Below are positions 41,437 through 57,470 of a stretch of DNA of 64,000 nucleotides, in pieces. Each line of letters opens with the position of its first letter. The stretch's first letter is position 1. Origin of the DNA: Alphaproteobacteria bacterium (GTDB taxonomy: Bacteria; Pseudomonadota; Alphaproteobacteria; Sphingomonadales; Emcibacteraceae). The translations under genes and the position numbers were made by a program. The stretch is from contig JAUIDN010000002.1 in the NCBI GenBank assembly GCA_030428615.1, forward strand, positions 1-64,000. The letters run 5' to 3'. The notes under the pieces are model-generated. The model did not search any database, was not told the DNA's origin, and worked only from the letters and a program-made list of their open reading frames with translations.

Positions 41437-41573
41437 CTCATTTCCTCCTTAAATTATTTAGAGCCCGTTTATCATAGGGAGCTGAAATGAACCTGAAAAA
41501 AGGAGAAGAAATAAAAATTATAACGCTGATAAAATCAATCGCGCTCTTAACTTGATACTATTTTAATGAAAAG

Positions 41574-41591
41574 GTGGTGCCCCCAGTCGGA
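41574..41591 (+). repeat. Left attachment site (partial copy of the tRNA-Leu 3' end)
   Basis: GTGGTGCCCCCAGTCGGA, identical to 57385-57402. Bases 41575-41591 match the last 17 bases of the tRNA gene, CCA included; the tRNA continues only at the right-hand copy, so this one is the distal attachment product. Confidence 0.9.
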
Positions 41592-45577: not shown

Positions 45578-46552
45578 TTATAACATTGTACTCAATATAT
45601 TTGATTTAAATAGTTCACCTTCACGAATATATCGTCTTATTGTAACGTCAGACTTATGCCCAGTCTGTTTCATAATTGCCCACGTCTCGGCCCCTGCTTG
45701 AGCGGCAGATGTGGCAAAGCCTGCTCTTAATGAATGGCCTGAGAACATGGCAGGATCAAAACCTGCAAGTGTCACACGTTGTTTAATGATATACGCTACC
45801 CCGTGGTCGGCTAGTCTGTCTTGCCCTAACCCAAGCTCACCCAGCGGTCTAAAAAGTGACCCTTCTTCAATCTCACTAATTTCCATGTAAGTTTTGAGTG
45901 ACGAAACTGGGCAGTAGTCACCACGAGCATAAGGTATGCCAATCCGCCTTCCTTCACCTTGCTGATCTGTCTTGCTTCGTACAATATTTAGTATCACACC
46001 TTCTGGAACAAACTCGATGTGTGAACAATCAAGGGCGACCAGCTCAGAGCGCCTCAGAGCGCTAGCAAAGCCTATAAGTAGTAGTGCGCGGTCACGAACG
46101 CCTTTAACGTCGTCCTCGCACGTCTGAAGCATCTTAATTAATCGTTCTTTGGTTATCGGTGATACTTGTTTTGGTGCTACATGATGTTTTCTTCGAATAC
46201 CCTTCATCGTATTGCGAACGAGTTCTGTTTTGGTCGGGTTATCATAACCTTTCACTTCGTGGATTTTAGACAAAGCAGCCACACGGCGTGATAATGTCGA
46301 TACGGATAATATGCCAGCGTGATCTGCTAGATAGTTTGCCACTAGTTCCGGACTAGCAGGTATATTTCCACCCCACCCAACGAAATGTTGAAGATCGGAT
46401 TTGTACGCTCGTAACGTGGCTTCAGATGACGATGCCCGCACATAGTCTTTTGTGCGCTCAGAAGCTTCATTTTCCACCCTCGATAAGTGAAAGTTATCGG
46501 GGGCAGGTGCGCTAACTAGCTCGCTTGGATTAAAGTTATGTTTTTTTATCAT
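45578..46552 (-). CDS. Second tyrosine recombinase of the island
   Basis: 324 residues: a SAM-like N-terminal core-binding domain (about 30-125, SSEATLRAYKSDLQHFVGWGG) and a catalytic domain with the first Arg in ASALRRSELVALD, the HxxR in SGHSLRAGF, the later His in TGHKSDVTIRRY and a Tyr nucleophile in that RRYIREGE segment. Length is normal for a stand-alone recombinase. It is unrelated to the large recombinase at the tRNA end and may belong to an older nested element or resolve or invert DNA inside the island. Confidence 0.88.
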   Translation of the reverse strand: MIKKHNFNPSELVSAPAPDNFHLSRVENEASERTKDYVRASSSEATLRAYKSDLQHFVGWGGNIPASPELVANYLADHAGILSVSTLSRRVAALSKIHEVKGYDNPTKTELVRNTMKGIRRKHHVAPKQVSPITKERLIKMLQTCEDDVKGVRDRALLLIGFASALRRSELVALDCSHIEFVPEGVILNIVRSKTDQQGEGRRIGIPYARGDYCPVSSLKTYMEISEIEEGSLFRPLGELGLGQDRLADHGVAYIIKQRVTLAGFDPAMFSGHSLRAGFATSAAQAGAETWAIMKQTGHKSDVTIRRYIREGELFKSNILSTML

Positions 46553-46640: not shown

Positions 46641-47210
46641 TTATCGGCTGCGATAATCGTATGGATTTTCGAATTCCCCCGCCCAGATACCGACGTTAGC
46701 AATTCTGGCCTGTGTCTCTTCAATTACATAGTCGTACGAATAGTAAGTGTAAGCAACCGCCATGCCTGCTGATACCATTGATGCTTCTATATCTTCATTC
46801 AAGTAATTGTAACACTGCGCAATTGTGCGGCCATAACGATCGGTGCTTTCTGTGATGCAGGTTACTATCTGGTTGTTGATTATTGTATTCAGATAAGCTT
46901 TTGCTTCAACACCGCACTGATACTTCCTACCTTCTTTCGTGCAAGGCTGATCAATTTCCGGTGCGTCAATGCCGTGAAACCTAATTCGTTCGCCATTAAT
47001 TTTAATTGTGTCGCCATCTGTGATTTCAGCATAGCCTCGAATATCACCATCAACTGTTTTAGCTAGTTGACCTGTATTGTTATTGGTGAGGGAAACAATG
47101 TCTGGTGCATAAAATCCAACCAATGCACCCAATACAATAGCTACACAAATTATTGGCAATAATTTTACCGATTTCGATCGCCTTCTAAAAGGCAACAGCT
47201 TGCCCATCAT
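46641..47210 (-). CDS. Membrane-anchored thermonuclease-family protein
   Basis: 189 residues: a basic N-terminus, one membrane helix (about 16-34) and a staphylococcal-nuclease fold with DGDTIKINGERIRFHGIDAPEIDQ, the Glu/Arg catalytic region GVEAKAYL and DRYGRTIAQCY. The topology puts the nuclease outside the cytoplasmic membrane, where it could cut incoming DNA. AAGG precedes the ATG. It lies 103 bases after the exonuclease I gene on the same strand, so it may be part of the same transcription unit. Confidence 0.85.
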   Translation of the reverse strand: MMGKLLPFRRRSKSVKLLPIICVAIVLGALVGFYAPDIVSLTNNNTGQLAKTVDGDIRGYAEITDGDTIKINGERIRFHGIDAPEIDQPCTKEGRKYQCGVEAKAYLNTIINNQIVTCITESTDRYGRTIAQCYNYLNEDIEASMVSAGMAVAYTYYSYDYVIEETQARIANVGIWAGEFENPYDYRSR

Positions 47211-47313: not shown

Positions 47314-48711
47314 TTAACTCACACCGTAGCTATCCAGGTACTCTTGAATTTCGTCGAGAAACTCATCTCTGTCCTGAAAACGAGGATCGGATCGTGCTTT
47401 TTCTAATTCCTCAAACGCTTGTTCAATCGTACACCATCCATCTTTCTCAGGAGCTGGCCCAACCAATCTGTTGTTTTTCCAATCGTCGAGTTTATCTATA
47501 ACATTTGGGGGTAACATCTCCGGGGCATGTTGATATATAAGTCGGCATCCTGCCTCTCTTAACCTGACGTCTTCCATTTGCAGTACAAGTTCATATCGTT
47601 CGTTCCAGCCTACTCTGTGGAATTGCTCCATCAACCGCTGATCATCCCAACTTGGAAAACCTTCGAATATTTTTCCTTCAAGGTAGTCTTTCTTTTCGTA
47701 ACCTTCAGTTATTAGGGCTAATGCTTGCCCAACCTTATCGCAAAAGTCTGGTCTACTTTGTACTAATTGCGCTCGCCGTTTAAGTTCTTCATATCCGATT
47801 TCCTGAATAATTGGGTTTAGCGACTGTTCATTTGCTGGAAAAAGGATAGGCTGATTATTAGTCTTAACTGACCTTAGTCTTTTTTCACGGTCGTTACGGA
47901 CGGCTACAAGCTCATCTACAGACAAGTCCAGAAGATCGCTCGGATCATTCCGAAGGTCAACAACGCCAAAATCTGTGGGATTAATCGAATTGACCCCTGC
48001 CATACTAACCGCAAATCGACAGATACGGCCAAAATGATTTTCCGTTAAACATATTGGTCCCATATTCCCAAGTAACTCTTCGATATGCGGCTTAGCAACA
48101 TTTTGCATCATCTCTTCCCACACATATGGGGCCTTCGTCTTGATGATTTTCATAATATGCAAGGTTGCCCTGACATCGTCGAGAGCATCATGAGCGTTTT
48201 CGTGGGCAAAGCCATTTAAAGGAGCAAGCTGATCCAGCTTAAAGGAAGGATTGCCTTTAACGCTGACAGGTATCTCAAGAACGCCCGGACTATGCACGTG
48301 GCAAGCATGAGCCATTCGTAGAACATCAGCGCGGGTATTGCCGTTAGTATTCGTCAGATACGTAGGCAGTAAATTCTGATAAAAAGCCTGTCTCACAAGT
48401 GGCTCGTCAAAAGCCAGCGAATTGTAACCTGTTATCACAGCTGGTGACCATTGTTCTATGAACGCTTTAATGCTCAGTACGAACTCGTAATGTGAAGGGA
48501 GTGAACGATCTGTAATCTGGGCAGGACGGACATTAGTTACAAGTAGGGCTGTCGGATTAGCCACCACGTGCGGCTGTATCTGGCACCGGATGTCTATGGT
48601 TTCAATTTCGTTTAGCTCGTCATCAGTGACTATCGCGGCAAACTGAAGTATCTGATCAAACTCCGTTGCCGTGCCAGTTGTCTCTGTATCATAAACTAGA
48701 AAATTCATCAT
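47314..48711 (-). CDS. Exonuclease I (SbcB-like) 3'-5' DNA exonuclease
   Basis: 465 residues, close to E. coli ExoI (475). DEDDh catalytic residues: Asp8 and Glu10 (VYDTETTG), Asp in GYNSLAFDEPLVRQAFY, and His/Asp in NAHDALDDVRAT. The ExoI landmarks LPSFRLxxL-like (NPSFKLDQLAPLNGF) and the C-terminal helical part are present, so the whole ExoI architecture is kept. ExoI degrades single-stranded DNA. It starts 12 bases after the UvrD-like helicase gene, so it shares an operon with the OLD nuclease and helicase. Confidence 0.85.
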   Translation of the reverse strand: MMNFLVYDTETTGTATEFDQILQFAAIVTDDELNEIETIDIRCQIQPHVVANPTALLVTNVRPAQITDRSLPSHYEFVLSIKAFIEQWSPAVITGYNSLAFDEPLVRQAFYQNLLPTYLTNTNGNTRADVLRMAHACHVHSPGVLEIPVSVKGNPSFKLDQLAPLNGFAHENAHDALDDVRATLHIMKIIKTKAPYVWEEMMQNVAKPHIEELLGNMGPICLTENHFGRICRFAVSMAGVNSINPTDFGVVDLRNDPSDLLDLSVDELVAVRNDREKRLRSVKTNNQPILFPANEQSLNPIIQEIGYEELKRRAQLVQSRPDFCDKVGQALALITEGYEKKDYLEGKIFEGFPSWDDQRLMEQFHRVGWNERYELVLQMEDVRLREAGCRLIYQHAPEMLPPNVIDKLDDWKNNRLVGPAPEKDGWCTIEQAFEELEKARSDPRFQDRDEFLDEIQEYLDSYGVS

Positions 48712-48723
48712 TAAACCTTATAA

Positions 48724-50151
48724 TCAAAAGTTCAAATTAGTAGTTTTGCTGCAAATTGTCACCGTTTTAGCTCCCCTAGTCATCGCAACATATAAATTTT
48801 TCGCGTCGAGGTCATCGGCATTAAGTACAACGACATGATCAGCTTCCAAGCCCTTTAAGAGTAAGGTGCTTCCGATTGCACTTTGCGGCAACTGTCTGCC
48901 TATAGCTCTGTTTTCTTCTCGCACTTGAACAGCGGCATCTTCAAAGTTCTTGTCGTCAGCTGAACTCATCGTGATTGCCTTCATACAAGCCTTCAAGACA
49001 GCTGGCCTGTAATTTCTACATTCTGTCTGTTTTGTGCATGACGACAATAAATTTGCTACATTGGAAAGAGTTGGAAATTCCTCTAATCGCAAAGCTGCTA
49101 GCTCCATGTCAGTTGCTGGATTTCTCGCTCTGTTAGATTTAATGGTTTTTAATCTGGCCATTGTACCCTCGACATCAATATTTGTGAGAACACTACTAGC
49201 AAAATTCAATGTTTCTCTCACTGAATAGCCATCACCTAAACATAGTCGACTTGCAAAATTAGTTAAATCTATCAAGCTAACTGGTTCAACAGTTATTATG
49301 CCTGGTACCCTCTTGGCAATTCTAAAACGGCTTTTCTCTGATCTGCTATCACCAATTACTAGTGACGTTTCTCCCTTAGCTTTATGTATGCATCTTGCAG
49401 CGTCTACTAATTTGTTATGATCTTCTTGATCACCTTGCAGTTCAACCCATCTTACCGACGCTGGTGCTTGATTTAGATCAACAACTTCACCATTTAGAAG
49501 CTTAGTCCGAACTTTAAGTAGCCATTCTCCTAGCTCTTCATTTTTTTCATTAATCCAACGCCAAGGTTTAGTGAGTTCGCCTTTTTGAGGAAAATGTTTG
49601 CAAACATGCTCGTCCCAATCGGCAAGCGGGTCATTTCCAAAACCGAAAATTGCTTGCATAGGGTCGGCCAATATACATGCGGGCAAGTGATTAGCTGCAA
49701 AATATACAATCGCATGTTGATTGTGAGAACAGTCTTGGTATTCATCAACTATAATTCTTGAATAGCTTGCCTTCAGAATATCGGTTAAATGACCTTTTTT
49801 TAACACTCTCCAACAAGCCTTCCTAATTTTTAAATAATTGGGCTTTTTGGGATTTGCTCCAGAAGAATAGTTCGCACGAACGGGGAATGTTGAAACAATC
49901 CTCATAGCCCACCCATCAATAGTGGCTAGTTTATACTTGGATTTTGGAATAGCCAGTTTTTGCAAACGTTGCCGGATTGCTGCAACGCCAGCATTTGTAT
50001 GAGTTAATATCAAAATAGGTTTTTCATCAGTGTGCTCAATTAGAGCCTCAGTAATTAAGTGCGTTTTACCGCAGCCTGCTGGGGCTATAATAAGTCCGCG
50101 AGTGATAGTGAGTGGGTTTACATCACTCATCATCAACGCCAACCCAATCAT
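48724..50151 (-). CDS. UvrD-like SF1 helicase (GajB-like)
   Basis: 475 residues, the size of GajB. Walker A APAGCGKTHLI, motif Ia LTHTNAGVAAIRQRL, Walker B VDEYQDCS, motif III region LADPMQAIFGF, and motif VI NLYVAMTRGAKTV are all present without the large 2B insertions of UvrD itself. It overlaps the OLD nuclease gene by 29 bases. The ATG at 50151 has AAGGG upstream; 50133 and 50130 are possible alternatives. In Gabija, the helicase-like subunit binds the nuclease and senses DNA termini; that role is inferred here. Confidence 0.82.
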   Translation of the reverse strand: MIGLALMMSDVNPLTITRGLIIAPAGCGKTHLITEALIEHTDEKPILILTHTNAGVAAIRQRLQKLAIPKSKYKLATIDGWAMRIVSTFPVRANYSSGANPKKPNYLKIRKACWRVLKKGHLTDILKASYSRIIVDEYQDCSHNQHAIVYFAANHLPACILADPMQAIFGFGNDPLADWDEHVCKHFPQKGELTKPWRWINEKNEELGEWLLKVRTKLLNGEVVDLNQAPASVRWVELQGDQEDHNKLVDAARCIHKAKGETSLVIGDSRSEKSRFRIAKRVPGIITVEPVSLIDLTNFASRLCLGDGYSVRETLNFASSVLTNIDVEGTMARLKTIKSNRARNPATDMELAALRLEEFPTLSNVANLLSSCTKQTECRNYRPAVLKACMKAITMSSADDKNFEDAAVQVREENRAIGRQLPQSAIGSTLLLKGLEADHVVVLNADDLDAKNLYVAMTRGAKTVTICSKTTNLNF

Positions 50152-51823
50152 AAATTGCCCTTACAACACTTCTAAGGTCTTTATGTGAGTTTTCAATATC
50201 TGGAGCAATTATGTATCGTGCTACGTCTTCCATTATGGATATTCTTTTAAACCAGCCACCTAATTTTGCAGCATCTCCAAGTGTGTCTTGGCGATCTTCT
50301 CTTAAGTCTTCCTTCCATTCTTCCATATTTACGGCCGATTTTTCAGCACTAGTAATATGATCATGAACCAGTTCTTCACCATGTAATTCGATGGCGACAT
50401 CTAGTAGTTTAATGGCAGTTTCTTTAGTTACACATGAAAATAGTTCTTGCTCGATTGATAGACCTTCACTCCATTTAAAAACCATCCCGTTATTCTCGGT
50501 AAATGCTTTTTCTTCAACTTCTTTTGGCTTTACATCGTCGTCCCGCAGCGTAGAAACTTTATATTTCAAGTGTTGAAATGAGGACGCACAATTGTAAATC
50601 TTAGTAACTCCACCTGCGTCAACCAATACAGTTCCAGCAGCGGTCAATGTTTTCAGACCTTGATCACTGCGGAATAAGTCCAATCCCCTTATTAGTCCAA
50701 CCTCTGTCGCGCCTTCACAAATTATGACGTTCGTTCCAAAAAAAGCTTCGGCGGAATGCCGGATTGTACCTTGTAAGTTATCAACATCTTCAACGTTTAA
50801 AATATTATATTGGGATGGGCTTTTGCGAACTATATTAAGCTGATCACAAGACAATTCTCTTAAAACTATTGGTGAATGAGTAGTAAGGAATACCTGTGAA
50901 TTTGATTTTTTATCTCTGGTCCCCAAGGATGTTAAAAACCGAGAAATTCTATGTGGCTCAAGACCATGTTCAAGTTCATCAACAAGAATAATATTACTTT
51001 CTTTATCTACATGTTTTTGCAAACCAGCAACTAACAAACGAGTTGATCCAAGCCCCATTTTTTTTAACGAAATACCTTGGTCATCGTGTAAAGAAATATT
51101 CCCGCCAGAAAATGAAACTGAATTGGCATCAAGTAAAGCAGTAATTTCAGCCCCATAATTAACACCTAATTCATCCGCTGCATTTTCAACGATTTCCAAT
51201 GTCTCATCTAGCTGATCGCCTGCGCTTTCACCAAAAGACAATCTTGCTTGTCTTGCTGCTTCTGCAAAAGCTGCTGAATTATCTATCTTTTCTTCAGAAA
51301 TTCTGTTTAGAAGTGAAGTTTTGTTCCAACTTAAATGGTTTGATGCATATGCACCAATTCTTGTTGGAGCAACTTGCAAACGGTCCCCCCAAGAAAGGTT
51401 TCTAACTACTTCTTGGTCTTTAGCTCGTTGAGAAAGTAGAGACCATTGGGGATCAAGATCATCTTCGATTAAAAGACGAACTGTTAGGACTGTCTCAGCT
51501 CCTGATATAGGCTCATCTTCGATCGTACCGTCATCGTTCATTCCCTGTAAGAATAGACCATATCTGTCAAAAGTTTTAAGCTTGTCGTTTAAGTCCCCAA
51601 TAGTGATTTCTATTATAATTGGGTTGCTAATATCTAACTGATGAAAATCAGCATCGGTCACTGGTAAAGTGCGTTTGGCGCCAAGACACCAATCTATTGC
51701 ATCAAGTATTGTTGATTTTCCAATATCTCCATGACCGACCAAGCAATTAACATTTTTATGTGGATGCCATTCAAGACTATTTATGCTTCTAAAGTTAGAT
51801 ATTAATATTTTTCTTATGCGCAT
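50123..51823 (-). CDS. OLD-family ATPase/TOPRIM nuclease (GajA-like)
   Basis: 566 residues, like GajA (578). N-terminal ABC-type ATPase: Walker A GHGDIGKS (30-37), signature-like SLKKMGLGSTRL, Walker B ILVDELEHGLEP, H-loop LTTHSP. The C-terminal TOPRIM has the Glu in NVIICEGATEV, then VLVDAGG and the acidic LRDDD cluster. Class 2 OLD proteins like this are encoded beside UvrD-like helicases and form the Gabija anti-phage complex, where nucleotide depletion releases DNA cleavage. It is the first gene of the nuclease-helicase-exonuclease operon. Confidence 0.85.
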   Translation of the reverse strand: MRIRKILISNFRSINSLEWHPHKNVNCLVGHGDIGKSTILDAIDWCLGAKRTLPVTDADFHQLDISNPIIIEITIGDLNDKLKTFDRYGLFLQGMNDDGTIEDEPISGAETVLTVRLLIEDDLDPQWSLLSQRAKDQEVVRNLSWGDRLQVAPTRIGAYASNHLSWNKTSLLNRISEEKIDNSAAFAEAARQARLSFGESAGDQLDETLEIVENAADELGVNYGAEITALLDANSVSFSGGNISLHDDQGISLKKMGLGSTRLLVAGLQKHVDKESNIILVDELEHGLEPHRISRFLTSLGTRDKKSNSQVFLTTHSPIVLRELSCDQLNIVRKSPSQYNILNVEDVDNLQGTIRHSAEAFFGTNVIICEGATEVGLIRGLDLFRSDQGLKTLTAAGTVLVDAGGVTKIYNCASSFQHLKYKVSTLRDDDVKPKEVEEKAFTENNGMVFKWSEGLSIEQELFSCVTKETAIKLLDVAIELHGEELVHDHITSAEKSAVNMEEWKEDLREDRQDTLGDAAKLGGWFKRISIMEDVARYIIAPDIENSHKDLRSVVRAIYDWVGVDDE

Positions 51824-54373: not shown

Positions 54374-55480
54374 TCACCAGCCAGCAGTATCGATGAATGC
54401 TTGCTGACGTTTCGTTATTTCTGCCAAATTGCGTTTAATTAACTTGAAGAGACTATCCACATCTTCAGGGTCCAGCCCCCACCGACAACAATCAGCTTCA
54501 ACCGCGAGATGTCTTAGCTTGTCGCTTCCCGCGAATTCATATTCTTTGTCCAGTTGGTCACTGACAAGGTAGAACAGACCCATCTCCGTGGTTGGCTGCC
54601 ATGCCTTGCGTGGGAGCTTCATATTAAGCCACTGAGTAAGGGTATTGTCTTCATTTAATAAACTCCTGATCACAGCCTTACCGCCCCTCGTGAACTGATC
54701 TAGCGCGAATGACGGGACACTGACATCACCTTCTGCCGATCTAAGATTGTGCGTTCTAATCTGACCGCCCGCACATTCCTTATGGGAAAGCTTAAGAGGC
54801 CAGAATATGGGTAATGCGCATTGAGTGACCCTGATCCCCGCCATGGTCATCATTGGCTGCCACAGTGGGACAGAAAGCTGCTCAATAGCCCATTCATAAG
54901 CGCCAAGGTCTCCAGGCATTTCTGGCATCATCCCGGCCCCAAATCTTTTTGTCCCCGCAAGCAACCACGCTGCTGCTGATCGTTCGAGCAGGAAACGGTC
55001 CTTGTCGATCATGATGTCCACCAAGTGTCGTGGCGTTTTATGGGCGAAGCGATCCCGCAACAGATCAAGGCTCCCGTGGTAGGCTAGGATTGTATGGATA
55101 TGCTCAGCACTTCTTTCCTTGGCTGAAGAGGCTAGTGCGGCGGCACACGCTCTTACGGCTGTGTATATCTTATGTTTGGCTAGATACTTTGTGCCTGAAC
55201 AGGCTAGTACCGTCACTGCCACTGTATCGGGCGCACCCAACCCCACATCTTCGAACGCGACTATAGCCAGTCTTCGCCTTGCGTATCGCTGGTCGATATT
55301 CCAGAGGGTATCCAATGCTCGCAAGGTCAGGGTCAGGTTTCCACGCCGGATACCCTTTTGCAGTGCGGAAGCTGCGACCCACTTGTCGGGCAATGGCTCT
55401 AATGGCGGTGGAAGACCGCGATTATTCTCAATCAGAGTTTCCAGCATATCCCGAAGCTGCATCAAAGCGATATCATTCAT
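54374..55480 (-). CDS. RarA/MgsA C-terminal-domain-like protein without AAA+ domain
   Basis: 368 residues. Residues 30-90 (KWVAASALQKGIRRGNLTLTLRALDTLW...RRLAIVAFEDVGLGAPDTV) resemble the C-terminal tetramerisation domain of RarA/MgsA (LxKSIRGSDPDAALYWLARML...ARRLxxxASEDIGLADP), yet no ATPase domain precedes it. The rest is helical, with late motifs I do not recognise. It stands alone between the recombinase gene and a gene-free gap; a palindrome with its ribosome-binding site in the loop sits directly upstream. Function unknown. Confidence 0.6.
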   Translation of the reverse strand: MNDIALMQLRDMLETLIENNRGLPPPLEPLPDKWVAASALQKGIRRGNLTLTLRALDTLWNIDQRYARRRLAIVAFEDVGLGAPDTVAVTVLACSGTKYLAKHKIYTAVRACAAALASSAKERSAEHIHTILAYHGSLDLLRDRFAHKTPRHLVDIMIDKDRFLLERSAAAWLLAGTKRFGAGMMPEMPGDLGAYEWAIEQLSVPLWQPMMTMAGIRVTQCALPIFWPLKLSHKECAGGQIRTHNLRSAEGDVSVPSFALDQFTRGGKAVIRSLLNEDNTLTQWLNMKLPRKAWQPTTEMGLFYLVSDQLDKEYEFAGSDKLRHLAVEADCCRWGLDPEDVDSLFKLIKRNLAEITKRQQAFIDTAGW

Positions 55481-55579: not shown

Positions 55580-57289
55580 CTAGCTGACAATCAAGTGATC
55601 AAGTTTCAAATCATATTCTACTAAATCGATACATTCTTTTAATTTCTTAATCTGATTAGAACCATAGACAGCATTCATACCTGATTGAGCATGTCCCAAA
55701 ATGGCATCCTGATGGGTATCGAGAATATCTTTATCTTTAAACGCATTCTTAACATTGTGCCTTAATGAATGGAATGAAGTCTTATCTGTTTTAATCCCTA
55801 ATTTTTCCATGCGATAGCGAAACTTCTTACTGAATAAGTCCGAATAATAACCTTTGGTGCTTGGTTTAATCTCTTCAAAAATACGCTTCATATTCTTTTT
55901 CTTTTGCTTATCCCAATATTGAATAAAACCAAATTCGATCAGATTTTTATGTAGTGGTACTTTTCTCACGGAAGACATGGTCTTTACCGATTTATTAACG
56001 TCGTCCGGATCAGCTTTAACATCGAACACCCAGATATCATCCACTAAGCACAAGTCCGTCAGAGCCAATTGTATTATCTCTCCCAGCCTCATTCCTGTAT
56101 ACAATCCGATTAGTGGCACCCAGTATAGACCATCCTTAATTATTAATTCGCCGGGCTTAAGCCTATTACCTGGAGATTTGCATCCGCTATAAATTGGGCT
56201 ATTGAACCAAACTTTCAACTGTTCGTGTGAAAATGGGTCTTTTTTATCCAACGCATTTTTCTTTACCGTCACCTTTAATCCGGTAATCGGAGATACATTT
56301 ATATCGTATTCAAGCGTTACCCATTTCATAAAGGCACTTATCGTTCCCCAGTATTTATGTGCTGTTTCAGGCGAGATTACTTCTAAATTTTTATTTGCCT
56401 TTACGGCTTCTTGAACTGTCAAATTATTCAGCTCCTTTTCTTTCATGTAATTTTTCGGTATGGCTTCGATCATATCGCGAAAATCTCGCATTTCGTCTTT
56501 AGACACTAGCTTTATGTTTTTGTGTCCAATTGCCGCGTTCAACCAATTCAAACACCGGGCATTTTCCTCGATCGTCTTTTTCTTCCACACCTTTTCAGAT
56601 TTAAATGAGACGTATTTTTCAAGCAGTGTTGAAACCTTGAATTTATTATTGTCATGATCACTGTTTAATGGCGTTATCAAATCTGAGGTTTGATCTGAAT
56701 TATATCCAGCGAAAAGTGGCTCCTTGATTGCTCGCTCGTGAAAATTTCCTCGTATTGTTGCGATGTATATTCGGTAAAGCTCGTATCTTGCTCGCGCTAT
56801 GCCTTCTAAAAACCGAAGTCTCAACAATCCCTTTTCCGGAAGTTCCAGATCGTTATTTTCGAGAAGCTCTTCCGCATCTGATATTGTAACTAGTGAGAAA
56901 TTCTTCGACATTATTTCGTTGGTCAACTTCATATTATTGGCTTTTACATCAGTAAGCTCGTGGGTTAAATCCAGATCAGACCGAGCCATATCCATTCCCA
57001 GCAGCATTTCACTTTCTTCATAATTATCTCGAAAGTACCATTGAACTAGTTCGTCGGCCTTTTGTTTAGTGAGTTTTTTCATAGCCAGTTTCCCCATCAC
57101 ATCATCGAATTCTTTTGCGTGCGAACTTAACCTTAAGCAAATAAGCGCCGCCTTGTCAAAATCAGACGTCTCTAGCGAATGGCACAGCTCCCACTTGTTC
57201 AGTAGTATTCGTGCATTGGACGACAATCGGTATCGAAAATAGTACACACCATTACGATTATATAAATGTGGGACCTTTTCTTGCCGCAT
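55580..57289 (-). CDS. Island tyrosine recombinase (integrase) next to tRNA-Leu
   Basis: 569 residues from the ATG at 57289, preceded by a perfect AAGGAGG; the open frame continues upstream through the tRNA, which rules out earlier starts. Residues 1-90 are a DUF6538-like N-terminal domain (VPHLYNRNGVYYFRYRL). The catalytic domain shows Arg in YTGMRLGEIIQL, HxxR in FHSLRHNVKNAF, and GHAQSGMNAVYG with the Tyr. Arm-type repeats lie between the gene and the attachment site, so the recombinase probably represses itself. Confidence 0.92.
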   Translation of the reverse strand: MRQEKVPHLYNRNGVYYFRYRLSSNARILLNKWELCHSLETSDFDKAALICLRLSSHAKEFDDVMGKLAMKKLTKQKADELVQWYFRDNYEESEMLLGMDMARSDLDLTHELTDVKANNMKLTNEIMSKNFSLVTISDAEELLENNDLELPEKGLLRLRFLEGIARARYELYRIYIATIRGNFHERAIKEPLFAGYNSDQTSDLITPLNSDHDNNKFKVSTLLEKYVSFKSEKVWKKKTIEENARCLNWLNAAIGHKNIKLVSKDEMRDFRDMIEAIPKNYMKEKELNNLTVQEAVKANKNLEVISPETAHKYWGTISAFMKWVTLEYDINVSPITGLKVTVKKNALDKKDPFSHEQLKVWFNSPIYSGCKSPGNRLKPGELIIKDGLYWVPLIGLYTGMRLGEIIQLALTDLCLVDDIWVFDVKADPDDVNKSVKTMSSVRKVPLHKNLIEFGFIQYWDKQKKKNMKRIFEEIKPSTKGYYSDLFSKKFRYRMEKLGIKTDKTSFHSLRHNVKNAFKDKDILDTHQDAILGHAQSGMNAVYGSNQIKKLKECIDLVEYDLKLDHLIVS

Positions 57290-57298
57290 AACACCTCC

Positions 57299-57321
57299 TT
57301 GTGTAACAAGTTGTGTAACAA
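57299..57321 (+). repeat. Two TTGTGTAACAA repeats, probable recombinase arm sites (right end)
   Basis: Copies at 57299-57309 and 57311-57321, 12 bases apart, directly upstream of the recombinase gene. They match the cluster at 41640-41695 at the opposite end of the island. Confidence 0.7.
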
Positions 57322-57384
57322 AAAAGGCTTTCACCCAAACTGGATAAAATGATAATCTATTAGTATCAAGGGGATAGAGTAAAA

Positions 57385-57402
57385 GTGGTGCCCCCAGTCG
57401 GA
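57385..57402 (+). repeat. Right attachment site at the tRNA-Leu 3' end
   Basis: GTGGTGCCCCCAGTCGGA, identical to 41574-41591. It covers the last 17 bases of the intact tRNA gene (CCA included) plus one flanking base, so integration leaves the tRNA whole. Confidence 0.9.
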
Positions 57403-57470
57403 CTCGAACCGACACGGCCGAAGCCACTGGATTTTGAATCCAGCGTGTCTACCAATTCCACCACAGGGGC
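57386..57470 (-). tRNA. tRNA-Leu (anticodon CAA)
   Basis: 85 bases with an encoded CCA end. The acceptor stem pairs GCCCCTG with TGGGGGC (two G-U pairs). The anticodon stem CTGGA/TCCAG encloses the loop TTCAAAA with anticodon CAA, reading UUG. The long variable arm (GGCTTCGGCC region) identifies a class II leucine tRNA, and the T-arm has GGTTCGAGTCC. It is the integration target of the genomic island. Confidence 0.95.

Follow-up and report, generated by a model that had tools for sequence, protein, structure and literature searches.

A gene for an exonuclease I (ExoI)-fold protein that lies directly behind a gene pair of the Gabija type raises the question whether the exonuclease is a third component of the system or an independent gene that happens to share its location. 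We addressed this question for the first 64,000 nucleotides of contig JAUIDN010000002.1 (assembly GCA_030428615.1, an alphaproteobacterium of the Emcibacteraceae), hereinafter the window.

The gajA-gajB pair and the exonuclease gene

The locus consists of four co-directional genes on the minus strand, gajA, gajB, exoI and a gene for a SNase-like protein (Table 1). Re-reading of the open reading frames reproduced the coordinates, the overlap of the first two genes and both intergenic gaps given in a preliminary description, which had interpreted the locus as a Gabija-like system with ExoI as an extra part.

Table 1. Coordinates of the genes and island features discussed in the text (positions in the window)
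Feature	Position	Strand	Remarks
GajA-like class 2 OLD nuclease	50123-51823	-	566 aa; N-terminal ABC-type ATPase, C-terminal TOPRIM
GajB-like compact UvrD-family SF1 protein	48724-50151	-	475 aa; first 29 nt shared with gajA
ExoI-fold 3'-5' single-strand exonuclease (predicted)	47314-48711	-	465 aa; 12 nt beyond gajB
SNase-like thermonuclease	46641-47210	-	189 aa; hydrophobic N-terminus; 103 nt beyond exoI
Second tyrosine recombinase (XerC/D-like)	45578-46552		next after the SNase-like gene
Gene matching a PADLOC TIR-type model	44549-45472
Gene with partial MgsA_C match	54374-55480
Tyrosine integrase (DUF6538 + Phage_integrase)	55580-57427	-	adjoins tRNA-Leu
tRNA-Leu (CAA)	57386-57470	-	island integration site
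Island-end direct repeat, copy at the tRNA-Leu 3' end	57381-57402		22 bp; 21/22 bases identical to far copy
Island-end direct repeat, far copy	41570-41591		21/22 bases identical to tRNA-Leu copy

The Gabija-like character of the first two genes is borne out by the profile comparison that had been proposed for them: the GajA-like protein matches the PADLOC GajA model (PDLC04168) with 719 bits over residues 1-561, and the GajB-like protein matches the GajB model (PDLC04173) with 599 bits over residues 14-474. The ATPase and TOPRIM portions originally recognized from motifs in the first protein are recovered as the Pfam domains AAA_21/AAA_15 and OLD-like_TOPRIM, and the second protein contains the UvrD-helicase domain. 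Eight residues of the GajA-like protein (K36, D282, E283, E370, E374, D428, D430 and K526), which we take to be the key residues of the OLD ATPase and the acidic TOPRIM site, are invariant in an alignment of 12 sequences. The top fold matches of its AlphaFold2 model (mean pLDDT 83, pTM 0.66) are OLD 6p74, the retron Eco8 OLD protein and GajA (8sm3, 8u7i and 8x5i), with a TM score of about 0.5 and rmsd of 9-14, so that the comparison reflects the overall domain order, not the exact pose. Gabija and other class 2 OLD proteins contain an extra helical insert of about 50 amino acids in TOPRIM, and the GajA:GajB complex of Gabija has 4:4 stoichiometry; our model predicts several helices for residues 457-561. 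A chance identity of the genes is excluded because the profile matches are full-length and the modelled folds match as well.

The pair thus shares with Gabija the gene order, the gene sizes, the short overlap, the combination of an ABC ATPase and TOPRIM in one protein, and the compact SF1 partner. It differs in that exoI and the SNase-like gene follow downstream, and its proteins belong to a subfamily far from those of Bacillus cereus, with phmmer E-values against the solved structures of about 7e-6 for GajA and 0.05 for GajB. Class 2 OLD systems, in which an OLD gene stands beside a UvrD-like gene, are equated with Gabija in one review (PMC10568477). Taken together, these observations support the assignment of the pair to the Gabija type (class 2 OLD), diverged but intact.

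The gene behind the pair is real, complete and intact. Its product combines the RNase_T and Exonuc_X-T_C domains (Pfam), and the best fold matches of its model (pLDDT 92.5) are ExoI of Methylocaldum (4rg8) and E. coli (4js4 and 1fxx), over the whole length and with TM scores of 0.82-0.85. All five DEDDh residues (D8, E10, D102, H174 and D179), the first two of which had already been singled out as intact in a full-length ExoI, are invariant in a 17-sequence alignment that includes the window protein. By fold and residues, the protein is predicted to be a working 3'-5' single-strand exonuclease. Although the whole-length fold and the DEDDh residues are common to the E. coli (SbcB) and Methylocaldum enzymes, the window protein shows about 25% identity to them in the fold alignment, is encoded on a mobile island and scores 215.5 bits against the NCBIfam exodeoxyribonuclease I model (NF008746), below the 260-bit cut-off. 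Its best PADLOC model is RTasSbcB (390 bits, full length). It is, then, an ExoI-fold relative that is not filed as a housekeeping SbcB. The search for the ExoI C-terminal domain in the window's genome returned this protein as the single match, and RTasSbcB matches at E<=1e-30 were found in 27 of 385 genomes of the class, the window genome included, in agreement with the earlier impression that ExoI is uncommon in alphaproteobacteria.

The arrangement of the genes resembles that of an operon. The exoI gene is preceded by an AAGG motif, and no terminator-like site was found between gajA, gajB and exoI on their strand; together with the 12-nt spacing, these features fit a true operon and count against the view of exoI as a passenger. 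Neither promoter-like sites (16 against an expected 17.9) nor terminator-like sites (3 against an expected 4.9) exceed the chance level, and apart from this absence of a terminator-like site we give them no weight. Probably, gajA, gajB and exoI are present on one transcript.

Linkage of the pair and ExoI in other genomes

If ExoI were a component of the system, the two would be expected to travel together, and we therefore compared the neighborhoods of GajA relatives with those of ExoI relatives. The GajA loci came from 18 other genomes (all those with GajA matches in samples of 398, 385 and 296 genomes, the window genome aside), 3 plasmids and 5 viral contigs; to these 26 loci, 10 further plasmid loci were added, so that the 13 plasmid loci in total are a hand-picked subset of the first 40 of 314 matching records. 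In 35 of these 36 loci gajB follows gajA, with an inserted transposase gene between the two in one case (L263). ExoI is found in none of the 36. For 33 loci it was possible to judge which gene comes next; L083 has a broken gajA and showed no GajB, and L211 and L214 lie on contigs that stop at gajB or within it. Three loci (L084, L087 and L230) encode distant members of the GajA family (221-239 bits to the model). The genes that come after gajB in the other relatives are different ones, or none is co-directional. Among plasmids, GajA relatives occur in 314 of 72,556 records (189 of them from Klebsiella), all except one less than 60% identical to the window GajA; a tblastn search of 50,697 phage records gave no GajA match. 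In the class sample, one genome besides that of the window (G477) encodes both GajA and ExoI, on different contigs. The GajA relative of this genome (L068, 5949-9194) is split by an in-frame stop, with GajB open, and its ExoI is diverged.

The reciprocal comparison gave the same picture. Among the matches listed, GajA was found in none of the 62 loci fetched as ExoI relatives. Counted in this set are a presumed duplicate, loci with distant ExoI proteins, and three in which an open ExoI frame was not found; GajB-like matches in these loci are weak, at most 52 bits. The scan of the class genomes yielded 27 other places with ExoI, 19 of which were fetched with their neighborhoods. The scan of genome contigs yielded at least 61 loci, of which the weakest 27 (L122-L148) were dropped from the counts, and two loci (L149 and L150) were kept from another list of 61, the remaining 59 being weaker (E of 9e-13 or worse, over about the first 200 residues). 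Plasmid records with ExoI number 42, of which the best 40 were listed and 7 read, and a single-sequence query found no close ExoI relatives in viral contigs. With at least 61 loci in the contig scan and 8 of the 27 places outside the neighborhood reading, GajAB-ExoI operons that form a small clade may have escaped the sampling. In the ExoI tree, which was built without the closest relative described below, the branching point of the window protein is not resolved, and for this reason no sister context can be named for it.

That closest relative, among the matches listed, comes from the same genus (genome G779, locus L277) and is identical to the window ExoI at 395 of 462 positions (85%). Its genome, a 92%-complete draft, gave no match to GajA (E<=1e-50) or to GajB (E<=1e-5); the GajB null, obtained from a single genome, is weak alone. 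On the upstream side of this gene, where gajB would lie, 8.8 kb are visible, and the translations read as a divergent cluster for metal efflux that includes an AraC-type regulator. When window positions 51900-46401 are compared with this locus, DNA similarity is confined to 48714-47344, that is, to exoI. Downstream of the G779 exoI, a gene resembling those of GIY-YIG nucleases begins, and the contig breaks off within it (L277, 8842-10387 for the two genes). ExoI matches were detected in 3 of 13 genomes of the genus, the window's included; the third (G789) encodes a protein 37% identical to the window ExoI, its upstream side cut by the contig end, and gave no GajA match. The presence of ExoI relatives in genomes without Gabija matches and the lack of conserved linkage in the sample imply that the inheritance or movement of ExoI does not depend on GajAB, and the G779 gene is the strongest single fact against a three-part system.

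We accordingly consider it likely that the locus comprises a Gabija-type pair of two genes, carried by an island at tRNA-Leu, and that the ExoI behind it is not a needed part. ExoI is probably a separate piece of cargo, an accessory or passenger gene rather than a third component, and we infer that its function is independent of Gabija. By analogy with the studied Gabija systems, the pair would provide phage defence: GajA and GajB would form one complex that responds to the ends of phage DNA, and this complex would cut or otherwise disable that DNA. ExoI would have come to lie downstream of gajB and would probably be co-expressed by read-through. As the locus suggests, genes can come to be spaced as closely as in an operon by chance.

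The alternative that survives best is a three-part Gabija, in which GajA-GajB would act at phage ends or nicks and ExoI would digest the resulting 3' single strands, or strip single strands to which end-binding or annealing proteins of the phage are bound, and so prevent the rejoining of damaged phage genomes. It draws on the tight co-directional spacing, on the intact state of ExoI and on a preprint which describes that Gabija stops the circularisation of phage DNA with ends held by phage proteins (PMC12407980). For Gabija itself, the preprint proposes that linear phage DNA with RecBCD-free ends is acted on; the window's genome encodes AddA, a part of AddAB, which is the counterpart of RecBCD. 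However, no second example exists among the 36 GajA loci or, among the matches listed, the 62 ExoI loci, and the closest ExoI relative found belongs to a genome without Gabija matches. Furthermore, in the assays described for B. cereus, neither GajB nor GajA:GajB unwound DNA, so that no single strands are expected from GajB, and target DNA was degraded by GajA alone (PMC10681800). The nuclease cascade originally envisaged (cut, unwind, degrade) is left without its middle step by this failure of GajB and GajA:GajB to unwind, and without conserved linkage as well; nor does the order OLD-UvrD-ExoI recur in the sampled genomes, the very outcome under which the preliminary description would have taken ExoI for a chance neighbor. 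An operon of ExoI with Gabija was not encountered among the open-licence papers listed, at the level of titles and abstract openings. All told, we regard the three-part system as unlikely. The same low probability applies to its evolutionary extension, namely that in this lineage Gabija captured ExoI as a working third gene that strips 3' single strands from phage ends and defeats the shielding of ends by exonuclease/annealing proteins, one portable ExoI family having been plugged in turn into Gabija, UG6 DRT, restriction and CapP-like loci.

Defence neighborhoods of ExoI relatives

The window ExoI belongs to a mobile, mainly alphaproteobacterial family that is often located near defence genes. 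Among the 44 loci with at least 170 bits to the window ExoI (one of the presumed duplicates L061 and L089 having been dropped), a gene for an ImmA/IrrE metallopeptidase lies directly upstream of ExoI in 15 (L013-L017, L058, L062, L064, L095, L098-L102 and L105), usually after an HTH gene. The one such metallopeptidase that was tested, from L058, matches PADLOC capP with 113 bits. The HTH-ImmA/IrrE-ExoI cassette, which in L013 and L017 faces genes of the multiubiquitin and ThiF types, may represent a CapH/CapP-like module that is regulated by DNA damage and includes an exonuclease.

In a PADLOC scan of the neighbors of ExoI in 11 hand-picked loci (within about 8 kb, with no matched control), strong specific matches were obtained in 8: a UG6 reverse transcriptase in L097, type IIG in L090 and L056, type IV in L096, SoFic in L094, candidate systems in L149 and L060, and CapP in L058. 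The match beside ExoI in L067 is a generic UvrD-helicase, and L091 and L063 gave no PADLOC match among these neighbors. At least one small genome (L066) has a member of the family next to an ordinary-looking gene, RmuC. The family thus recurs alone, third after HTH-ImmA/IrrE, and close to genes for restriction and for a UG6 reverse transcriptase. These settings provide a lead, namely that a portable exonuclease for single strands may be employed within or close to many defence loci. This recurrence makes a defence role of the window ExoI plausible and speaks against its being a mere passenger; a functional link to the adjacent pair is possible.

A second, improbable alternative is that ExoI, instead of attacking phage, moderates the system or the reaction of the host by removing toxic or immunity-triggering single-stranded DNA, in the manner of E. 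coli ExoI with the products of DRT9, where host ExoI is described as required to tolerate the system (PMC12483538; also PMC13174585). The window protein has as its best profile RTasSbcB, the ExoI of UG-type DRT loci, and in a Maricaulis MAG (L097, 8001-13705) its relative, a DnaG-like TOPRIM gene and the UG6 reverse transcriptase gene stand in a row; this is probably the kind of locus behind RTasSbcB. SbcB goes unmentioned in what PMC8934634 says of UG6. Unlike such loci, the island encodes no reverse transcriptase domain among the proteins scanned (13 of the 17 open reading frames of at least 100 aa, including all of at least 150 aa). We also know of no report of GajA or GajB making DNA.

The tRNA-Leu island and its cargo

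The gajA-gajB pair is carried on a 15.8-kb island that is integrated at a tRNA-Leu gene and delimited by the direct repeats listed in Table 1, so that the locus documents a diverged but intact Gabija-type pair on such an island. The G+C content between the repeats is 40.9%, compared with 44.3% in the rest of the window, and GC3 differs between gajA (0.26) and exoI (0.41), which favors the reading of exoI as separate cargo. The true start of the integrase is probably further in, because the listed GTG start falls inside the tRNA gene. The right flank of tRNA-Leu was matched in all 12 other genomes of the genus that were searched. GajA and ExoI were not found in the stretches read beyond tRNA-Leu in these genomes, of which 4 extend for more than 10 kb; the genes of the window's left flank were not found in the 12 stretches either, and a clean empty site was not recovered. 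One of the stretches contains a different integrase (26% identical).

With two tyrosine recombinases on the island, one of them encoded on the opposite side of exoI from the defence pair, ExoI, and perhaps the SNase-like protein too, might serve island movement or recombination rather than defence, but this is the least credible reading, given that the G779 ExoI adjoins a putative metal-efflux cluster, that no recombinase was seen among the translations of its 10.4 kb, and that several ExoI relatives lie near defence genes.

The SNase-like protein contains the SNase domain (Pfam), and the membrane anchor attributed to it, whose sole basis is the hydrophobic N-terminus of the translation, is putative. 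No relatives of this protein were found among the listed neighbors of GajA at the 26 other loci, or anywhere in the 10 further plasmid loci. The gap that separates exoI from the SNase-like gene contains one promoter-like site. As for ExoI, we favor the reading of this gene as cargo, probably on the transcript of the gajA-gajB pair.

Two additional island genes deserve mention. Part of the product of one, at the integrase end, matches MgsA_C without an AAA+ match, and its G+C content (51%) is the highest among the island genes measured. The other, next to the XerC/D-like recombinase gene, encodes a protein that resembles, in its C-terminal part and with a score below the cut-off, nucleoside 2-deoxyribosyltransferase and that matches a PADLOC TIR-type 'Effector' model (2.5e-14); it is possibly a second defence gene on the island.
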